Of a DNA stretch of 64,000 bases, positions 9,251-20,202 are shown piece by piece. Numbering within the stretch: position 1 is the stretch's first letter; each line of letters begins with the position of its first letter. Position numbers and translations under genes: made by a program. The DNA is from Oceanispirochaeta crateris (lineage in GTDB: Bacteria > Spirochaetota > Spirochaetia > DSM-2461): contig NZ_CP036150.1 of the NCBI RefSeq assembly GCF_008329965.1, positions 1,612,001-1,676,000 on the forward strand, in the 5' to 3' direction. The notes beneath the pieces were generated by a model. That model saw only the letters and a list, made by a program, of their open reading frames with translations. It searched no databases and had not been told where the DNA came from.

Positions 9251-9281
9251 GCAATAGTTGTTTAACGATATTTCCACCATT

Positions 9282-10178
9282 ATGAATATACAATATACTA
9301 AAGTCATGCCAGACATCCATAGATCTATTATGATCTTCAAATTGAAAGATGAATTTTCAAAAGAAGACTTACAAAAATCATACAAATTATTGGTAAAAAA
9401 ATACCATCCTGACTCAAACCCAAAAAATCAAGACTGGTCTCACAAAAAGATGACAGAAATCAATCTGGCATATGAAACATGTTGCAACTTCTTAAATGCT
9501 AAAAAAGATAATAAGATTGACTTTAAAGAAGAAAGTGTCAAAAATCAAGAGAAAGAGAATGTTTTTAAACAAAAGAACCCAAATCATTTTGAAAAACAGA
9601 ATTTTAATAGGAATAATCAAGGATTCAATCCAATTTTATATAAAAATATAAAGAGAACATCATTAAAAGTCGTACATGCATCAGAAATATTTTTCGAATA
9701 TGGTCTAGAAAATAGAAAAATTCGATATGAAGGTGTGAGAAGGTTCAGATATCGAGAATCCTTGCGTTCCTATGAAGATTCATTTTCTGATATTTTAGAA
9801 CTAGAACAGTTTTGCCAGAATGATCTTGACCAATTTCTACTGAACCTATACATAAGGTTTACAGGTAATTTAACCCAGTATATTCACTTAAAAGATGCAA
9901 TGATTCCAAGGCATCCTCTACTAAACAGGCATTGGCAAAGTATGGAAGATCATTTGATTTACTCATTAAAGGATTATCTAGTCCCTTATCAGATAAGCAG
10001 CTTCAAAAAAATACATTGGAAAACTGGATTTACTTATTGCTGGAACCAACTGAAATATTTGCGACAAAGATTTCCCAGGCTAGAAAATGATGATGTATTT
10101 TTGATTTTTCACAATCTGGCAGACAGTTATAGTAAAATTAGAAAAGCCGAAGAGGATTGTGGAATCTCTTTTTTTTGA
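9282..10178 (+). CDS. Orphan J-domain protein, AT-rich
   Basis: The N-terminal 75 residues form a J domain: helix II is basic (LQKSYKLLVKKYHPDSNP) and contains the HPD triad, and helix III follows. Then come a lysine/asparagine-rich linker and a C-terminal region of about 180 residues that I do not recognise, with many aromatic and basic residues. It should act as a specialised DnaK co-chaperone. I chose the ATG at 9282; an upstream TTG at 9258 is in frame but has no ribosome site. The gene is visibly richer in A and T than its neighbours and stands alone between ilvB and the PPDK-like gene. Confidence 0.7.
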   Translation: MNIQYTKVMPDIHRSIMIFKLKDEFSKEDLQKSYKLLVKKYHPDSNPKNQDWSHKKMTEINLAYETCCNFLNAKKDNKIDFKEESVKNQEKENVFKQKNPNHFEKQNFNRNNQGFNPILYKNIKRTSLKVVHASEIFFEYGLENRKIRYEGVRRFRYRESLRSYEDSFSDILELEQFCQNDLDQFLLNLYIRFTGNLTQYIHLKDAMIPRHPLLNRHWQSMEDHLIYSLKDYLVPYQISSFKKIHWKTGFTYCWNQLKYLRQRFPRLENDDVFLIFHNLADSYSKIRKAEEDCGISFF

Positions 10179-10201: not shown

Positions 10202-10226
10202 AAAAGCTGCCCGAAGGCAGCTTTTA
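10202..10226. terminator. Terminator of the filament operon
   Basis: The stem GCTGCC-CGAA-GGCAGC is flanked by A5 and T4. On the minus strand it gives a hairpin with a T-tract just after the PPDK-like stop codon. Confidence 0.8.
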
Positions 10227-12839
10227 TCATTTTTTATTCTTCAGATTGTACTGAGCTACAGCCAGTTTCGCTATTGGAATACCATAGGGAGAACAGGAAA
10301 CATAATTCAATCCTGTATCCATGCAGAAACTAACATTTTCAGGTTCAGCACCATGCTCTCCACACAATCCCATTTTCATATTTGGCCTTACCATGCGGCC
10401 TCTTTCTTTAGCAATCTGTACTAGCTCTTTCACCGGCCCATTTAAATACTTAAATGGGTTTCTTTCCAACAAGTCATACTCATTGTAATCTGTAAAAAAG
10501 GAATTAAAATCGTCTCTGGATATACCATTTGTGGTTTGGGTTAAGTCATTCGTACCAAAGCTGAAAAAATCGGCATATCGTGCAATTTTATCGGCATTCA
10601 ATGCAGCACCCGGTAACTCAATCATAGTACCCACCTGATAAGGCAAAGCATCAATATCATATTTTTGCCTTACGGCTTCTTCTATATCACGGATACCAAG
10701 GATTTCAGCTCCCTCGATTCTCTTACCAAAGCGCACCGTTTTGACTTCTCGGTGAGACATGACAACAGGAAGCATTATTTCCGGTCTGGAATCGATTCCG
10801 TCTTCAACCTTCAACTTATAGATGGCTTCAAAGATGGAACGAATCTGCATGGCATAGACTTCGGGCTTCGAGATTGCCACTCGAATACCTCGATGTCCCA
10901 ACATGGGATTCACTTCGCCCATCATATCACAGCGCAGACGGATCTCAGCTTCTGTCACTTTGGGATGATCCTTGCGGTAGAAGGCTACAAATTCCTGCAT
11001 GCTGTCTCGTGTATGAGGAAGGAATTCATGAAGAGGCGCATCCAGCAACCTTATTGTGACTGGATGACCTTCCATAATTTTAAACAAATTGTAAAAATCG
11101 GAAGTTTGCATCTGACCAAGCTTATCAAGAATCTTATGCCGGTCACTCATATCATCCGTAATAATCAATGAACGGAATAAAGGGATTCTTTCTTCATCGA
11201 AAAACATATGCTCAGTTCTGCAGAGGCCAATACCATCGGCTAGAAATAAACGGGCCAATTGAGCATCCTTAGGCTGGTCAGCATTGGCATGAACATCAAA
11301 ATCACCAATAAACTTCTGAACGATATTCAAGTATTCTAGGATTCCACTTTCTTCTATGCTTGGTTTTATAAGATCTACTTTTCCAAAATAGATTGTAGGC
11401 TTATCATAAGAAGTGACATCCATTGTGATGTAATCGCCTTCTTTAATTGTTATATCACCAATCTTCACACTGGATTTCAATAACTTTAATTCGGGCTTGA
11501 CCATGGCAACTTTCCCGAGACTTCGGGCTACAACAGGTGCATGGGAAGCATATCCACCCTCAATAGTGATAACGCCTTTACAGACCTCAATGGCCTTGAC
11601 ATCTTCAGCATAGGTAGACTTCATAATCAGAATAAAATCAGATTCCAACCCCCGTTGTGTAGCAATGCGGTACTCTTTCATCAACTCATCAGTTGAAAAG
11701 AAGACACGTCCAACTGCCGCACCGACTGATCCGGAAATTCCACCTCTACTGGATGGAAGATTCTGTGCCGATTTACGGTCGATTACCGGATGAAGGATCT
11801 CGGCTAATCTTGTAGGCTGAATGTCATTGATAAGATATTCATCTTTAACAACGCCCATTTCATTTAATTCTAGCAGGGTTCTAATATGAGCCTGGGTTGA
11901 CTTCCCATCGGCTTCTTGTTGATCAATAACCCAGAGTTTCCCATCTTCTACAGTAAATTTTACCTGGCGTATTTCTTTGTAATGATTCTCAAGCAACCGG
12001 GCAATAGAATTAAGATCTTTGTAAATATCCTTTGATATTGTATCGATACCCTTTCCATCAGAAGATGTAGCATCAAAAGAATTTAAAAAATACTGGCCAT
12101 CAAGCTTATTTTCACCATTGACAATATCCCGTGTGAAAAAACTACCAAAATAGCTTTTCTTACCATAGTTACCAAAGGTCATGGCTTGAACCAGGAGAGA
12201 AGAATCATTGATAGACTCGGATTCTTTCAAATACTTCGTGTATAAAACCTGTATAAACTCAAGCTGAGCCCAGGAATCAGCAAAGATCTCCTGGGGATAT
12301 AGTCCTTCAAGTTCAACAAGTGTGCTTTTTGTTTGCTCAGCATTTGTACAGGATTTGAGAGAATCTATCTTTTTTTCAAGTAATTTTCTTCTATTGACAT
12401 CCGTTTCTACCTCTAGATCTAGAGTCACCACCCGTCTGAGCATATTTCTATATTCGTGATATGCGAATTCTTCACCAACAAAGGATGCAAAACCATCAAT
12501 TGTACTGCCACAAAGCCCAACATTGTGCAAACTAGAAAAAGTATCGATCATGTTGAGTTGAGGACTGAGTACATATTTGACTAAGAGAGGATTATCGGGA
12601 TCTCCAAACTTTTTTCCAACGACATCTTCCATGTTTTTGATGGATTTTTGTACAGCGGAATTATTTGTTCCGGGTGAATCCAACTCGGCAAGTAAAGAGT
12701 CATTTGTGAGAATAAATCCTGGGAGAATTGGAATTCCCAAACTGGAAAGATGCATTAAACGGCGGCCTCTATAGCCAAGCACATCCAGAACATCCTCATC
12801 CTGTGTGAAAACTTCACTGCTGAAAGAATAAATATCCAT
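10227..12839 (-). CDS. PPDK-like protein with degenerate ATP domain
   Basis: The 870 residues align with pyruvate phosphate dikinase. The C-terminal PEP/pyruvate barrel is well kept (GLCRTEHMFF, FGTNDLTQTT, GLCGEHG with the catalytic Cys), and so is the swivelling phosphohistidine domain (GGYASHAPVVARSLGK, His about 433). The N-terminal ATP-grasp half has lost hallmark residues: the GGKGANL Lys is replaced in GYRGRRL, the Arg after LLV is absent, GEYLINA reads GQYFLNS and the QTR element is replaced. It may therefore not use ATP in the normal way. Last gene of the cfpA operon, 30 bases after orf314. As I recall, the same neighbourhood in Treponema pallidum is annotated ppdK. Ordinary PPDK activity is not ruled out. 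Confidence 0.75.
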   Translation of the reverse strand: MDIYSFSSEVFTQDEDVLDVLGYRGRRLMHLSSLGIPILPGFILTNDSLLAELDSPGTNNSAVQKSIKNMEDVVGKKFGDPDNPLLVKYVLSPQLNMIDTFSSLHNVGLCGSTIDGFASFVGEEFAYHEYRNMLRRVVTLDLEVETDVNRRKLLEKKIDSLKSCTNAEQTKSTLVELEGLYPQEIFADSWAQLEFIQVLYTKYLKESESINDSSLLVQAMTFGNYGKKSYFGSFFTRDIVNGENKLDGQYFLNSFDATSSDGKGIDTISKDIYKDLNSIARLLENHYKEIRQVKFTVEDGKLWVIDQQEADGKSTQAHIRTLLELNEMGVVKDEYLINDIQPTRLAEILHPVIDRKSAQNLPSSRGGISGSVGAAVGRVFFSTDELMKEYRIATQRGLESDFILIMKSTYAEDVKAIEVCKGVITIEGGYASHAPVVARSLGKVAMVKPELKLLKSSVKIGDITIKEGDYITMDVTSYDKPTIYFGKVDLIKPSIEESGILEYLNIVQKFIGDFDVHANADQPKDAQLARLFLADGIGLCRTEHMFFDEERIPLFRSLIITDDMSDRHKILDKLGQMQTSDFYNLFKIMEGHPVTIRLLDAPLHEFLPHTRDSMQEFVAFYRKDHPKVTEAEIRLRCDMMGEVNPMLGHRGIRVAISKPEVYAMQIRSIFEAIYKLKVEDGIDSRPEIMLPVVMSHREVKTVRFGKRIEGAEILGIRDIEEAVRQKYDIDALPYQVGTMIELPGAALNADKIARYADFFSFGTNDLTQTTNGISRDDFNSFFTDYNEYDLLERNPFKYLNGPVKELVQIAKERGRMVRPNMKMGLCGEHGAEPENVSFCMDTGLNYVSCSPYGIPIAKLAVAQYNLKNKK

Positions 12840-12869: not shown

Positions 12870-13814
12870 TTAAAAAAGATCAAGCACGCTGTTCACAGCG
12901 CCTCTTAAAAAGACTTCATATCTCTGACTTGCGCCTTCAAAGAAATACTTTCTAAGCTTAGAGACATCTTTTATATTATCTCCGGCAACACTGAATAAAA
13001 TGGGAGTTCCGTGTTTGACTTTACCCCATTTGAACAGTGTATTTATATCATTGATCTTTTCACCATCATACCAGATAAGAACTTCTAAACCTGGATGGGT
13101 GGCCTTATAGCTGGCTATGATTTTCTTCCAAGCCTCCACATTCCCGTTATGAAACAATTCGTTTGTTACAAGAACTGAGATTTTGGCAGAAACATTTTTT
13201 GAATTGACAGAAACAGCTGCTTCCTGGACCTCGGTATTTTCAACAGGAGCCTTTATTTCAGCCTTCTCTTCGGGCTTTACGTCAGGATCAATGAAAGCCT
13301 TTTTGACCTTGACCTTTTTTCCATAAAGAAGGTTAAAAAAATCTTTGCAGGCAGCCTGCTCTGTTTTCTCGTCATTGTCTTTTCGGCTTTTAATGAGACA
13401 GACCATTAGCTCATCTCGTTTTAATGGAAGAACTTGAGCCCAATGATCCCGGTTTACCGGATTAATCACGGCAAGATCACCACTTGAGTTATAAAACGCA
13501 ATGACTACATCAAGCATGGTCCACTGAGACACAGTTGAGATGAGGTTATCAACAGAGTCTACTGCAATAGTCAGGTTTTCTGATTGATTCTGATAACGGA
13601 ATTTGTCAACCAGTAGTAAGTTGAGTACAGGCCTCAGCTGCTGAGGAGAGATTGATCCCTCCTCAAGAGCCTCGGTAAGTACATCAGCAAGATTCAGCCC
13701 CTCTTCTATATCCGAAGAAAAAGAGAGACTTGTCTTAAAATGCCCCAGAGCATGGTTAAAACCAGCTCTGGTGGATAACAAATTCAATTTATTATCACTG
13801 ATGTTTTGAGTCAT
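12870..13814 (-). CDS. Hypothetical protein in the cfpA operon, 314 aa
   Basis: A soluble protein with no signal peptide or membrane helix, of no family I recognise. A helical N-terminal half (about 1-160) is joined by an acidic/lysine-rich linker (about 175-205) to a compact C-terminal domain of about 105 residues with alternating hydrophobic strands (ISVLVTNELF, LEVLIWYDG, TPILFSVAG). The ATG follows the cfpA stop by one base and the PPDK-like gene follows by 30 bases, so it is co-expressed with the filament protein. A filament accessory role is inferred from position only. Confidence 0.7.
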   Translation of the reverse strand: MTQNISDNKLNLLSTRAGFNHALGHFKTSLSFSSDIEEGLNLADVLTEALEEGSISPQQLRPVLNLLLVDKFRYQNQSENLTIAVDSVDNLISTVSQWTMLDVVIAFYNSSGDLAVINPVNRDHWAQVLPLKRDELMVCLIKSRKDNDEKTEQAACKDFFNLLYGKKVKVKKAFIDPDVKPEEKAEIKAPVENTEVQEAAVSVNSKNVSAKISVLVTNELFHNGNVEAWKKIIASYKATHPGLEVLIWYDGEKINDINTLFKWGKVKHGTPILFSVAGDNIKDVSKLRKYFFEGASQRYEVFLRGAVNSVLDLF

Positions 13815-13815
13815 A

Positions 13816-15792
13816 TTAGATCTCGCTTAATTCGTCCAAGTTTACTTTCTTCCGACTTGATTTGGAAGGAGTAACATCTGCTTTACCTTTAGGAGCATCT
13901 TGCCCATCATTCAAACTTTTCAACCTATCAGCTGATTCTGATGATACTGCAGAAGCTGAACTACCTGAATCACTGAAAGTCTGGTTAATATCATCACGAA
14001 CGGTTGAACGACGTCTTTTGAAGGAAGCAAATGCAGCATCTGCAAAGCCCTTAGAAACACCATTTAAAAATTCATTCATGACATTGGCCATGCTGTTCAG
14101 AGTGTATTTCTTTCGTTTGATACTGGTGATATCAACATCCAGAACAAGACCAGGCTGAACATGATAAGGATTGATGATGTAATCAAATTCTTCGACTTCT
14201 CTTTCGAGGAAATCAATTCTTTGATCTGTAACAACCCGCATCTTTGGATTTTCATATCCAAAAGTCAAAGCCACTTTCTCTCTTGCTTTTCTAAGCATTT
14301 TCTTAAGAAGCTCTTTTTCATAAATATAGGTCTGATTCAGGCGCTCAACATCTGTGTCTTCAACACGGAGACGCATGATTTCATTCCAGTTCTTTTCCTG
14401 TTCTTCATAAGTGGGGTCACCAGAAACTTCTTTGATCTGTTTTTTGATATTCCCGGCAACTTTCTTGCTCAGGTCATCAAAGTCATTGATCTTTCCTCTG
14501 GATTTTTTGCCCTGATATACAACTTCAACGACATCCCAGACGTGTAGAACTTCTTTTCTGAATTCATCAACCTGGTCATCGTAATTTTTTCTCAGCTTTT
14601 CAAGCTGATCATTGTCGTAGAATTTCAGAGTAATCTGATATCGTTCATCAGGAAGTCTTGCAGGATCTGCATCTTCATACTCTTTGATTCTTAACTCACG
14701 GGCATTCTTCATGTTTTCAATAAACTGATAACCCATTTTACTTGTATCAAGAATAGAAGTCAGATTGTTAACAGCAGTATTGAATCCTCTGTTTCTGATG
14801 TTTTCATCATCTACAATCCGTTTGATATTTTCTCTGATATTCTGGGGGTCAAATTCATCTCTTGGAATTTCAGCTCTCAGACCTTCAATCTTTTCGACCA
14901 GATTTTTAGCCATGAAAGCATAACGTCTGGAATTTTCATCTTCTTTATCATCGTCTGTAAAGTCAGTGACTTTCTTGATTCTTTCAAACATCAGCTCAGA
15001 ATCAGTAAGTTCTTCCTTACCTTCATCCACAAGCTGGTCCTGTAGAACCTCAATTTCACGATCAATAAACTCGGAAATAGTCTTAGAAATCTGATCTTTG
15101 ATAATATATTCAACAGACGCCTGATATTGAATGATAGGACTGATCAACTCTGATTCAAGTATATTGATGGAAAGCTTTACATCAGAAACGACTTTGGGTT
15201 TGAATGCGTTGTCTTTGAAAGAACACTTGATAATTGAATATGCATTTTCACCTCTGATAAATGCACCAACATCTGTTTTCTGTCTCAGAAGAGCATTTGT
15301 TTCATTTTCAAGATCATTCAGACCTCTTTGAACATGCCCCTGGAGATGTCCATACATGTTAACGATAGACTTCTCAACTTCACCGGTATTGAACTTATCA
15401 GCCCCACCGATCTGGTCCAACATTTCAGATATTTCTTTTGGAGTGTATCGAGCAAGAGCCTTGTTTTCCTCTTTATCGATAAATCCTCTGATTTTTTTGA
15501 CCATTTCGTCTTCAGTGGTAACGACGTAACGGTTGAACATGTTCTGGTAGTTCTGGTTGTAGTAGTTATACAGTTTCTGTTTCAAACCACCCATTACATC
15601 CAGTTCTTTTAGAACCTCAGGAGGCAGTTTTGTCTCAACTTCTTTTAGAACCTTTTCAGATTCTTCCTGAATGACACGTTCAAACTCATCATTCTGTTGA
15701 CGCCCGTCTTGTGCAAGACTGTTTCTTGAACCTACTGCTGAAGGTTTAGTTGGATGAAATACATTAGGACTTCTGGGAAGATCACCAGCCAT
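13816..15792 (-). CDS. cfpA: Cytoplasmic filament protein A
   Basis: This 658-residue protein matches CfpA of spirochaetes, the subunit of the ribbon of cytoplasmic filaments under the inner membrane along the cell. The N-terminus ([19 protein letters not shown]) and the highly charged, mostly helical body without membrane segments fit. In Treponema, loss of CfpA is known to disturb cell division and chromosome segregation. A strong promoter and an ideal ribosome site (AAGGAG, then ATG) suggest high expression. It is followed directly by orf314 and the PPDK-like gene. Identification rests on recognition of the sequence and of the gene order. Confidence 0.85.
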
Positions 15793-15849: not shown

Positions 15850-15877
15850 ATTATATTACATATAATTTTTTTTTCAA
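15850..15877 (-). promoter_or_regulatory. cfpA promoter
   Basis: On the minus strand TTGAAA (15872-15877), 16 bases, then a perfect TATAAT (15850-15855). It lies in a 172-base AT-rich spacer with poly-A/T tracts, and gives a leader of about 50 bases. Confidence 0.7.
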
Positions 15878-15964: not shown

Positions 15965-18652
15965 TTACAACCCGCTATTCAACTGATTTGTAATCCTCTC
16001 CCTGAGCTGTTCGCTCTTTGTACGCAACGCCATGGATTCCAATTCTTCTTGTATTGATGTCATTTCTGCCTCATCTATACCAGGTTCATTGAAACGGGTT
16101 TCCAACTCTGCAAGCCTGAGAAGATCTGTCTCAAGCTCCCGCCTTATCATACGGGACGCGATGAACCAGATAGAATCTCCTCTTTGCACAGTATACTCTG
16201 TACCATCAGGCATTTCCAGAACATTTCCAGTATAAATCCAGTTTGGATTATTCCCTTCAAAGACTTTGTAATCTAAATCACGATAGCCATTCTTGACTGC
16301 AATATCATTTGAGACAAGGTGAATATCCACAAGAGTGATGGTAATGTTCTCAATCTCAAGGTACGCCAGGGCTTCTTCTCTAGTTTGGGGCCGACGTTCG
16401 GTTTCAACGATTGGCTCATCAATAACATCTGCTTCTGTACTTTTTACTGTTGCAGCACCCGTTTCTCCTGCAGTGCCTTCTCCTGCAGTACCTTCTCCTG
16501 CAGTACCTTCTCCTGCAGTACCTTCTCCTGCAGTACCTTCTCCTGCAGTACCTTCTCCTGCAGTACCTTCTCCTGCAGTACCTTCTCCTGACGTACCTGC
16601 TTCATTATTTATCGGAGCAGTAGCCTCTGCATTTAAACTATTTTCCTGAGAGAGAGAATCATTATTTTCAGCATTTTGTCCGCCATCGCTCTGCGACTGA
16701 GATCCCGTTTTGCCAGGGAGTTCCCCCTCATTTTCCAGATTCCCCGTACCAATATTGGATTGGACAGAAGCGTCTGATGCCCCGGAGGGATTTTTTCCTC
16801 TCTCACTAAAAGAGCCTATAGGAAGCAGGAAGAACGCCGCAACAGCACCGGCCAATAAAAGGAGGAGAAGGAGAATCCATAAGAAAGATCTCCGGGGCCT
16901 CTTCTTAGAATGATTTTTGGGAGCAGGTTTTTGGTCAAATCCCCGATTTGGACGTTCTTCGGCAGGCTTACTCTCTGGAGAAGCTGCTGATTGTTCGCTT
17001 GTGGTACTCGACTTTTTCACAGGAGGTACTGCTACTCGGGCCGTTACGGCCGGTCCTGCACCATATAGATTTTCCAACAAGGCCTGAAGTCTTTTCTTCT
17101 CTGAAATATAGACATCTTGTTCAGGAGTCTGAATCTTTTTCATTTGCTTGCAAATTTCTTGCGCTTTTTTGAAATTATAAGGATTCAATTTACTACTACT
17201 GATGCGATATAGAACAAAGGGGCCCTCCTTGCCAGAGTAAAGGTCACCTAAAACTGGCAACATAGGCGAAGGCTCACTCATGGATGATAAAATTTCTTCT
17301 AACTTTGTTATGATATGCTGGGCCAAAACTTTGCTTTTCTGCGTAATCAGAGTTTTCACATTGTGCAGGAATAAATATTCTAATCCCGGAGTCATCACAG
17401 TCACATCATTGGGAATACTTGGAATACTTTCACTATCTGCTCCATCGAAAAAAGATTTGACAGAATCTTCCAGATCATAGAGAGACTTCCAACTGTCCCG
17501 TCCTTCCCAGGATTCAAGGTAGGGATGAAGAAATGTAAGATACTTACTAATGAGCGTGGCGCCCTGGGGAATGGTATCTTCTAAAATGAAAGGAATCCCC
17601 TGCAGAGTTTTTATGGCAGTTTCATTGCCGTCTTCTGTTCTATGAGTTAAAACTTTTCTATCCTGGGAAACATGCCATCCGGCCCAGCGAGGGATACCCG
17701 AACCTGTAGAATCGAAGGGAACAATCAGATTGTTCTTGTCGCCGAATTGAATAAGAAGGGTACCCTCTTTGACTTCCGCCGTCATAGTACCCCTGTTCAA
17801 AGTTTCTCCCGGTTCCATTAAAAATGGCTGCACTGTGGAAGCTTTAGATCCTTCAGGAAACAGATGAAGAAGATGATCAGTAATGTCCTTTCTTGTTGTG
17901 AGGACAATAATATCCTTATTCCGCAGAGCTCTTCTTTTTATAATCTGAACAAGAGCTTCTCTCTCGGAGTAATTCATATTCTCCTCAGGAATATGGGTAA
18001 AAACTGAGTTCACTTCATCTGGATCAATTCCTTGGGAGGCAAGTGAGGCAAAATACTGATTCTCCATATCCAGGGAGATCCAGTTTTTATGCATAAGATA
18101 GAAATTTCCGTTTTCACTGATGAAGAAACCGGATTTATTCAACTCTTCCCGTGTATAGCGGAGCGGGTTCTTTAGCAATAGAGCCTTAATACTGTCACAT
18201 CTCTGATTGATATGAAGGTCTTCTTTTTCCCGCTTATGAAGATCAAAGAGCAATGTATTATCAAAATTTAAATGAATATTTCCATTATTGTAAAAATACA
18301 GATTATGGCGGTTTTCTCTTGTTTTGACCTGTCTGTAATCATTGAGCTCTCGAGCAGGTAGGTTTAAACCGTGGAAAAATTTTCTGAAATGTTCAATGAC
18401 ATCCACATCACCCAGATAGGACAATTTATTGTGTCTGGCATACTCTACTTCCAGAAAAGGATTACCCGTATACGATGAGGTCAGGATGATCCTGGATGTA
18501 ATTTTATGAAGAACTTCGGGCAGGTCTGAAGTGTTTCCGATCCTCAAGAAAGGATCATCATCATCTCTGTCACTACCAAGATACAGGATATAACATTCGG
18601 GTCCCAGATGAAATATACGATGGGACTCATTGGTTCTGCCAAGGGTTCTCAC
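15965..18652 (-). CDS. Bitopic membrane protein with LysM-like tail and repeat
   Basis: An 895-residue protein with a single membrane helix at about 589-611, preceded by a basic stop (KKRPRR), so residues 1-585 should be cytoplasmic and the rest periplasmic. The large N-terminal part was not recognised. The periplasmic part has a low-complexity Ser/Asn/Glu region, a five-residue GTAGE repeat (about 685-729) and a LysM-like motif near 815 ([17 protein letters not shown]), which would bind peptidoglycan. It ends in helices. The start is GTG with GGAGG eight bases upstream. It sits directly upstream of cfpA and downstream of a TPR gene, so a filament-to-wall linker is a reasonable inference but not shown. 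Confidence 0.75.
16464..16598. repeat. 15-bp tandem repeat, nine units
   Basis: The unit is tctcctgcagtacct. Units 2-8 are identical, unit 1 has one change (16464-16478) and unit 9 two (16584-16598). It encodes Gly-Thr-Ala-Gly-Glu on the minus strand. Because 15 is a multiple of three, copy number can change without breaking the frame. Confidence 0.95.
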
Positions 18653-18693: not shown

Positions 18694-20202
18694 CTATTTA
18701 CTCTTATTGTCCTCATTTAAACTCACAAAATTATATAACGGCCTGGGAAAGTCCCAATAATCAGTGGCAGATTCATTCCTTTCATGCATGATACCGAGGT
18801 ATTGAATCATCAGATTCAGTTGAAAATAGAGGTCTAAACAGAGATCTTTTAGTTCTTCATAATCAACTTCTGTCCATTGAGCCGGCCCATTTTCAAGAGC
18901 GAGAGCCATTTTTTCCATCCTCTGTTTACTACCGAGTATGCATTCGGAATATAATTCAAACACAGCATGAAGAGAGGGACTTCTGTTCTGATGCCAAACA
19001 CTTTTAACCGAAGTTCCTGTATAAAATAGAGACCTCAGAGATCCCGGATTTTCCATTCCCCAAAAGACACTTATGAATTCTGCAGCATCGTCCCAAAGAG
19101 ACCATCCTGTTAAATAGGCAGAGGATAATTGAAAGAAATTCCTTGATTTGACAGATATGCTTTTTAAATCACTTTCTCCTGCAGATCTATCAAGGTATTG
19201 TTTATCATGTTCAGGATTCAGCGTATCCAACAGAAGATATCTCCCGGTGGCATACTTATCCTGAAGAAGGTTAAAGTACTTATTCAGCCTGACAAATCTA
19301 TTTTTCTGACCTTTTCGAATTGTCAAATTAGAACTGCTGAGACCAAGGGTATCGCCCTTGGAAAAGTCACATTTACGGCAAAATGTACAGAGATTCAAAT
19401 ATAGCTGATTTTTCAAACAGAAATTGGTATAAAAATACTCCTCCTTAGATCTCGATGGAAATGAATGGAGGGGGTATTCACCGGGCGTTTCAAGAATCTC
19501 TCTTTTCAAGCCCGAATCCAGGAGTCTGTTTTTGATAATGACATCTTCCTGGTCATCATCGTCTTCCCTGGAGAGACTGCTTTTCTCAAGCAAAGCCCAG
19601 GCTTCCTGCAGAAATTCGGTTCTATTCGGCTGTGACGGCAGAGCATACTCTTTCATCAGACGGATTTTTTCATGCAGAATTTCCCTGCTAAGAGGGTTAA
19701 TTTTCAAGGCTTTCTGGTATGAGGCCAGGGCCTCCAGTCCCCTGCCGGAACTCTGATACATCTGCCCCAGGCCTTTATGAGCCTCAAACTCAACCCGGGA
19801 AGAAATAGAACCATAACGGAGTACTTTTTCATAATATTGACGGGCTTTGGTCTGTTCTGTCCGGCAGAAGAAGCCATAATACTCATTTTCAAAAGATGAA
19901 AGAGTCACCATATTGGAGTATTGATGTCCTAGATTCAGGAAATAAAGAGGACCGAGGTCCGGAACTTCCAGGACCTCACTACCATGTTTTTCAAGGAGAT
20001 ACAGTCCGTAGCGAAGGATCTTTTCATCACGAAGAATAAAACCTATATCGATCATGCATTCAATTTTACCCAGAAGATCCGGTAGAACCTGGACTTCCTT
20101 GTCAACAATGAGATCAAAGGCTTGTTGATACTGACCTTCTTCCATAAGAGAACGGGCAGTTTTTATCTGAACAGCAAAGGATTCCACAAAAGGATTATAC
20201 AT
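18694..20202 (-). CDS. TPR-repeat protein
   Basis: A 502-residue protein without signal peptide. Tetratricopeptide-like helices are visible at about residues 15-60 and in the stretch around 125-175, where ARQYYEKVL and EALASYQKALKINPLSREI follow the TPR pattern. The middle carries a cluster of cysteines (CTFCRKC, about 274-280) that could bind a metal. The C-terminal 200 residues were not recognised. It is 41 bases upstream of the bitopic LysM protein on the same strand and is divergent from the carboxypeptidase. A scaffold role in the filament locus is only inferred from position. Confidence 0.7.
   Translation of the reverse strand: MYNPFVESFAVQIKTARSLMEEGQYQQAFDLIVDKEVQVLPDLLGKIECMIDIGFILRDEKILRYGLYLLEKHGSEVLEVPDLGPLYFLNLGHQYSNMVTLSSFENEYYGFFCRTEQTKARQYYEKVLRYGSISSRVEFEAHKGLGQMYQSSGRGLEALASYQKALKINPLSREILHEKIRLMKEYALPSQPNRTEFLQEAWALLEKSSLSREDDDDQEDVIIKNRLLDSGLKREILETPGEYPLHSFPSRSKEEYFYTNFCLKNQLYLNLCTFCRKCDFSKGDTLGLSSSNLTIRKGQKNRFVRLNKYFNLLQDKYATGRYLLLDTLNPEHDKQYLDRSAGESDLKSISVKSRNFFQLSSAYLTGWSLWDDAAEFISVFWGMENPGSLRSLFYTGTSVKSVWHQNRSPSLHAVFELYSECILGSKQRMEKMALALENGPAQWTEVDYEELKDLCLDLYFQLNLMIQYLGIMHERNESATDYWDFPRPLYNFVSLNEDNKSK

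Follow-up and report, generated by a model that had tools for sequence, protein, structure and literature searches.

Pyruvate phosphate dikinase (PPDK; TIGR01828; C. symbiosum structures 1dik and 1kbl) is built of three domains: an ATP-grasp domain, a swivelling phosphohistidine domain and a PEP/pyruvate-binding barrel. The same logic of an ATP-grasp domain, a histidine domain and a domain for PEP or a drug is found in PEP synthase and rifampin phosphotransferase, which use ATP as the donor and show that the partner domains are exchangeable. PTS Enzyme I (PtsI) brings phosphate from PEP to a histidine domain without ATP and hands it on to HPr. For CfpA, the cytoplasmic filament protein of Treponema, we found no enzymatic or signalling partner in the literature searched.

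We analysed a 64,000-nucleotide stretch of the Oceanispirochaeta crateris genome (hereafter the window), in which a PPDK paralogue is encoded together with cfpA and a gene that we call X. The name PPDKψ is used here for the family of PPDKs without an ATP site to which this paralogue belongs. PPDKψ has the three-domain architecture, the swivelling histidine domain and the complete PEP/pyruvate site of PPDK; it differs in that (i) the ATP residues are lost throughout the family, (ii) its score lies under the curated cut-off, (iii) it belongs to a CfpA operon and (iv) it has a family-specific insert, GKkiEG, in the barrel and Ala or Ser in place of the regulatory Thr453. As in the Enzyme I/HPr pair, phosphate would pass from PEP to a histidine domain without ATP, and the adjacent X has a predicted HPr topology with a histidine at the position of HPr His15. 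In contrast to Enzyme I, PPDKψ carries a former ATP-grasp domain instead of the HPr-binding helical subdomain and, unlike HPr, X has neither HPr sequence similarity nor the HPr signature; a normal Enzyme I and a normal HPr are present besides PPDKψ and X. The domain logic of PEP synthase and rifampin phosphotransferase is also shared, without their site for the ATP donor. With the CfpA filament of Treponema, PPDKψ shares an operon and the genomes in which it occurs.

The ATP and PEP sites of PPDKψ and its relatives

The gene and its parts lie in the window as follows.

10227..12839, minus strand: PPDKψ, PPDK paralogue without ATP-site residues, 870 aa (ATG start; TIGR01828, 674.7 bits)
11805..12839, minus strand: PPDKψ N-domain, residues 1-345, ATP-grasp fold (R24, V90, Q292, K294 and E309 at the ATP positions)
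11400..11747, minus strand: PPDKψ swivelling phosphohistidine domain, residues 365-480 (Pfam PF00391, 43.1 bits, cut-off 23.1)
11541..11543, minus strand: codon of PPDKψ H433, equivalent to the catalytic His455 of PPDK (invariant, 134/134)
10230..11312, minus strand: PPDKψ PEP/pyruvate-binding barrel, residues 510-870 (Pfam PF02896, 234.9 bits)

The initial annotation, made from the letters alone, held that this protein had lost its ATP-site residues, among them the Lys of GGKGANL and the Arg after LLV, and that its PEP/pyruvate and phosphohistidine domains were intact. Both points are borne out by an end-to-end alignment with C. symbiosum PPDK (1dik; E=4e-147). In C. symbiosum numbering, all five ATP-site residues are replaced (K22→R24, the Lys of GGKGANL; R92→V90, the Arg after LLV; D321→Q292; E323→K294; R337→E309) and R135 is also gone (R135→N); H455 (H433 here) and all PEP-site residues checked, R561, R617, E745, N768, D769 and C831, are retained. 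Two details needed amendment. The QTR element, described as replaced, has lost its Thr and Arg but keeps its Gln (Q335) in 133/134 members. The Glu of GEYLINA (E271) is indeed absent from the window protein, but this position varies family-wide (E in 58/134), so that its loss is not diagnostic.

The loss is a property of the family. Among 134 family sequences, 130 could be scored, having all positions aligned: in 128 all five ATP residues are gone and two retain a single one, whereas 13/13 canonical PPDKs have 5/5. As the sequence contexts align without a shift, the presence of these residues in displaced positions is ruled out. At two of the ATP contacts the charge is reversed in many members (E323→K/R, R337→E). 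By contrast, the catalytic His455 is found in 134/134 sequences, and R561, R617, E745, N768, D769 and C831 are kept wherever they are aligned. Residues invariant in canonical PPDKs are likewise unevenly preserved, with 98/144 kept in the PEP barrel and 19/139 in the N-domain. The loss of the ATP half-reaction and the retention of the PEP half-reaction are thus well supported, as far as residues can tell. Judged in the same way, PPDKψ is very probably not a pyruvate phosphate dikinase, and it probably retains the PEP:histidine half-reaction, the latter being inferred from the invariant PEP site without biochemical data.

Relatives of PPDKψ (42-60% identity) occur in 57/149 Spirochaetota genomes surveyed, clearly apart from the canonical PPDKs (35-40%), and in the tree a branch with 100/100 support splits PPDKψ (56 rows) from the canonical enzymes; with its root unknown, the tree does not say which of the two sides is a clade. 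Scanning the GTDB genome collection gave 336 relatives. The best 80 of these 336 are all from Spirochaetota and, as only these were inspected, rarer occurrences outside the phylum are not excluded. In one clade (L051-L056, families f9 and f22), PPDKψ exceeds the usual length by ~95 aa and carries an N-domain insertion at about residues 150-260.

By curated models, the window protein lies under the TIGR01828 equivalog cut-off (843.45 bits); Pfam PPDK_N is not reached (20.4 vs cut-off 27) and both other PPDK domains pass. The PTS Enzyme I model TIGR01417 is not reached either (105 bits vs cut-off 341.7), and structure comparison aligns the N-terminal region with the PPDK ATP-grasp domain, not with the HPr-binding domain of Enzyme I. 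By the tests made, PPDKψ is a member of neither family, although it would work more like Enzyme I than like a dikinase.

In the predicted structure, the N-domain preserves the fold of its PPDK counterpart. The whole model is nearer to PEP-facing PPDK (2r82, Z 36.9; 5jvl_C is also among the closest) than to the ATP-facing 1kbl (Z 28.1), and residues 365-868 superpose on phosphorylated Enzyme I (2hwg; Z 24.2, 3.0 Å over 367 residues). These model comparisons are consistent with a half-reaction like that of Enzyme I and do not prove it.

The N-domain is maintained rather than decaying, as its omega is mostly 0.02-0.07 in close pairs (one divergent pair reaches 0.19). It also has family-specific invariants of its own (R24, K88, S92, R291, E298, W303, Q307 and S314). 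Together, the purifying selection and these invariants argue against mere abandonment of the ATP site and for another function of the domain. Open frames, phylum-wide conservation and omega far below 1 rule out a recent pseudogene. A second, normal ppdK, for which the initial annotation had suggested looking, is present elsewhere in the window genome (G000:C1:997648-1000257) and has all ATP residues; with the pyruvate kinases also encoded there, it rules out, for this genome, that PPDKψ compensates for an absent canonical enzyme.

The cfpA-X-PPDKψ operon and protein X

The genes cfpA, X and PPDKψ form a compact unit in this order, PPDKψ coming last, and are separated by 1 and 30 bp.

15850..15877, minus strand: promoter-like site, 11/12 matches, 58 bp before cfpA (consensus match only)
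13816..15792, minus strand: cfpA, which opens the operon and encodes the 658-aa cytoplasmic filament protein CfpA (NCBIfam NF040882 cfpA_ASD, 1037 bits, cut-off 500)
12870..13814, minus strand: gene X, 314 aa (no Pfam/NCBIfam family)
13149..13151, minus strand: codon of X His222, proposed phosphoacceptor (invariant, 117/117; phosphotransfer inferred)
12906..13196, minus strand: X domain 2, residues ~207-303, conserved C-terminal domain (DSSP of the model, Crh 2rlz alignment, conservation)
10202..10225, minus strand: intrinsic-terminator-like hairpin right after the PPDKψ stop codon, closing the three-gene unit (consensus match only)

The hairpin could also serve the plus-strand gene at 9258-10178, which encodes a DnaJ-domain protein and converges on PPDKψ. 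Upstream of cfpA, on the minus strand, lie a gene for an 895-aa protein of no known family that carries a tandem GEGTA repeat and has a single apparent membrane segment (15965-18652) and one for a TPR protein that weakly matches HEPN_LA2681 (18694-20202; 28 bits, just over the cut-off).

All three genes travel together. Both cfpA and X are present in 57/57 PPDKψ genomes, usually in one operon in the order cfpA-X-PPDKψ; X itself is found in 58/149 Spirochaetota genomes, and the three genomes out of 60 with cfpA that lack PPDKψ are all draft assemblies, 80-93% complete. In 111 of the 122 loci where enough flanking sequence is present to show it, X is found upstream of PPDKψ at a distance of no more than 400 bp; the other 11 loci make up two clades (f36 and f34). 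In the f36 clade (L044:1588-6972), four genes stand between X and PPDKψ, among them one for a vWA-domain-like protein and, directly before PPDKψ, one for a GAF-GGDEF (diguanylate-cyclase-like) protein; these domains were named by eye only. The co-occurrence counts are inflated by shared ancestry. Families f3 and f22, however, are split between genera with all three genes and genera with none, which indicates that cfpA, X and PPDKψ are lost or kept together.

Published data from T. denticola concern what, by gene order, are the same genes. TDE0844 ('pyruvate phosphate dikinase') and CfpA (TDE0842) are major proteins of the envelope fraction, in bands 1 and 3 respectively (PMC3931704), and TDE0842-0844 are co-repressed in co-culture (PMC3914990). 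TDE0844 was assigned to PPDKψ from gene order, not from sequence, and its co-fractionation with CfpA could reflect abundance or contamination. For gene X (TP0747/TDE0843) no functional literature was found.

The AlphaFold model of X (pLDDT 86.9) comprises a helical N-terminal part, domain 1 (residues 74-167), a disordered linker and domain 2 (residues 207-303), and DSSP assigns to both domains of the model the HPr order of elements, b-a-b-b-a-b-a. In a VIA search with this model, 31 HPr/NPr entries fill the first 31 rows, all on domain 1, with Z 7.2-10 and an rmsd of ~2 Å over ~80/85 residues, unrelated rows reaching at most 6.0; in the VIA searches the absence of other folds was not counted as evidence. 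Foldseek also ranked HPr first, with E-values of 0.04-0.2. The conserved histidine is not in domain 1. It belongs to the C-terminal 100 residues, which are extremely conserved, and His222 stands in the model directly before helix a1 of domain 2, that is, at the position of HPr His15. Crh (2rlz) aligns with domain 2 (219-301 with 12-85, Z 5.3), and the pairing of 222 with 15 holds if no gap intervenes. Taken alone, domain 2 reaches only Z 5.3-6, which is within chance range.

Homology of X to HPr is not supported by sequence. Pfam gave no HPr (PF00381) match up to an E-value of 10, profile-profile comparison of X with HPr (hhalign) gave an insignificant probability of 1.9-4%, and by profile-profile comparison the two domains of X did not match each other. 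The signature His15-x-Arg17-Pro is missing, X reading LFHNGNVEAW. The T. pallidum X domain has a weak ubiquitin match (E 0.012), far below cut-off. As HPr goes undetected by sequence, we call X HPr-like with respect to its predicted fold only and do not count it as a member of the HPr family.

The proposed role of PPDKψ

A protein without ATP residues, with its PEP part kept and encoded with cfpA and X, is probably a metabolic signalling relay of the cytoskeleton and not an ATP-making enzyme. The best overall explanation, to which we give a probability of about 0.5, is a phosphorelay from the ATP-site-less PPDKψ to X through which PEP/pyruvate is signalled to the CfpA filament. Given its invariant PEP site, PPDKψ would autophosphorylate at His433 from PEP and so read the PEP/pyruvate balance. 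The former ATP-grasp domain would dock a new acceptor in place of ATP, and the swivelling domain would carry the phosphate to it. The best candidate for this acceptor is the adjacent X, through His222 in domain 2, whose predicted topology is HPr-like, so that the pair would act like Enzyme I and HPr, built from a PPDK. This transfer to X is inferred without a complex model or biochemical data, and we rate it a little short of an even chance. The state of the relay would then act on CfpA and report the glycolytic state to the cytoplasmic filament; that the PPDKψ/X module acts there, which we infer from the operon, the co-occurrence and the co-fractionation, is slightly favoured.

The initial annotation had proposed a PEP-dependent phosphohistidine sensor or regulator by the cytoskeleton, rather than a glycolytic enzyme. 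The loss of the ATP site and the invariant PEP/histidine half fit this proposal, with activity not shown, as do the canonical PPDK and pyruvate kinase encoded elsewhere, the cfpA operon and the co-occurrence. Its interpretation is supported in its core; it lacked the third partner, X, and the membership of the T. pallidum PPDK.

The operon and the perfect co-occurrence with cfpA would also suit a filament-associated pseudoenzyme, a part of the CfpA ribbon with a structural or allosteric role that binds PEP or pyruvate to switch its conformation and passes no phosphate to a partner. The abundance of TDE0844, a major envelope band with CfpA (PMC3931704), suits a structural role, and in T. pallidum few transcripts are more abundant than that of TP0746 (PMC8525777). 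Structure or ligand binding alone, however, needs neither a histidine invariant in 134/134 sequences nor a complete set of the PEP/Mg residues checked, and we consider this reading unlikely.

The N-domain, which keeps its fold under purifying selection and has its own invariants, several of them basic as in an anion site, could instead serve a PEP-dependent kinase with another small acceptor, such as another nucleotide, PPi/polyphosphate or a metabolite. Rifampin phosphotransferase, a structural relative of the PPDKψ model, shows that a change of acceptor is possible, but no metabolic genes accompany PPDKψ, whose linkage is to cfpA and X; such a kinase also appears improbable.

Beyond the phosphorelay as such, we put forward a wider proposal: that PPDKψ and the HPr-like X form a second, PPDK-derived PEP:protein phosphorelay for the CfpA filament, by which spirochaetes with CfpA would, across their range, link the assembly of the filament or the division of the cell to the PEP/pyruvate ratio. 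It would follow that T. pallidum is without a functional PPDK and makes its pyruvate in some other way. In this full form the proposal is tentative, and we would not bet on it at even odds.

TP0746 of Treponema pallidum

TP0746 has been held to be a glycolytic PPDK whose most likely activity is ATP synthesis from PEP, AMP and diphosphate (PMC10013896), and its expression has been interpreted as pyruvate metabolism (PMC8525777). The T. pallidum PPDKψ (L047, G056:C1:810746-813310) is the only PPDK of its genome. Its 901-aa frame carries Ala425, Glu501, Pro655 and Ala869, the wild-type TP0746 residues quoted in PMC12152143, PMC3373638 and PMC10013896, and the CfpA encoded next to it has 678 aa, as quoted for TP0748; these agreements identify TP0746 as PPDKψ. 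At its ATP site the changes are K22R, R92V, R135F, D321E, E323R and R337P, and these residues argue against ATP formation from PEP, AMP and diphosphate.

In the survey of 149 Spirochaetota genomes, neither a canonical PPDK nor a pyruvate kinase was found in the T. pallidum genome, the control genomes for pyruvate kinase all being positive. T. pallidum does have a GTP-type PEPCK and an oxaloacetate decarboxylase alpha (OadA), which make a bypass from PEP through oxaloacetate to pyruvate plausible; in three genomes of the closest genus in the sample, PEPCK and OadA are missing and pyruvate kinase and a canonical PPDK are present. The T. pallidum PTS Enzyme I (G056:C1:625304-627259) is unusually long, a 711-aa frame that matches in three separated pieces.

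The view that PPDKψ is a PPDK like any other, with compensation at the ATP site and a continuing role in glycolysis as TP0746 is annotated, would suit the full-length PPDK fold of the model, the retained Q335 and the PEP-to-pyruvate enzyme expected in T. pallidum, which has no pyruvate kinase or other PPDK, but it is very hard to sustain when all five charged ATP contacts are gone, two with charge reversal in many members, when Arg95 and Glu324 of the plant enzyme (by position Arg92 and Glu323) are reported to take a direct part in ATP binding, so that their mutation likely abolishes activity (PMC5507339), when PEPCK and OadA give T. pallidum a bypass, and when the canonical enzyme is also present in most other genomes.

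PPDKψ is annotated as a glycolytic PPDK in many spirochaetes, the syphilis bacterium included. If TP0746 is not a dikinase, the last glycolytic step of T. pallidum has to be redrawn, with PEPCK and oxaloacetate decarboxylase as the obvious candidate. If the relay from PPDKψ to X is true, a PPDK has turned into an Enzyme I analogue, which would bear on the origin of PTS Enzyme I. PEP-dependent phosphorylation would be a direct and testable link from metabolism to a bacterial cytoskeleton, and for CfpA, a treponeme cytoskeletal protein without settled functional partners, PPDKψ and X are specific candidates that would be its first enzymatic or signalling partners.
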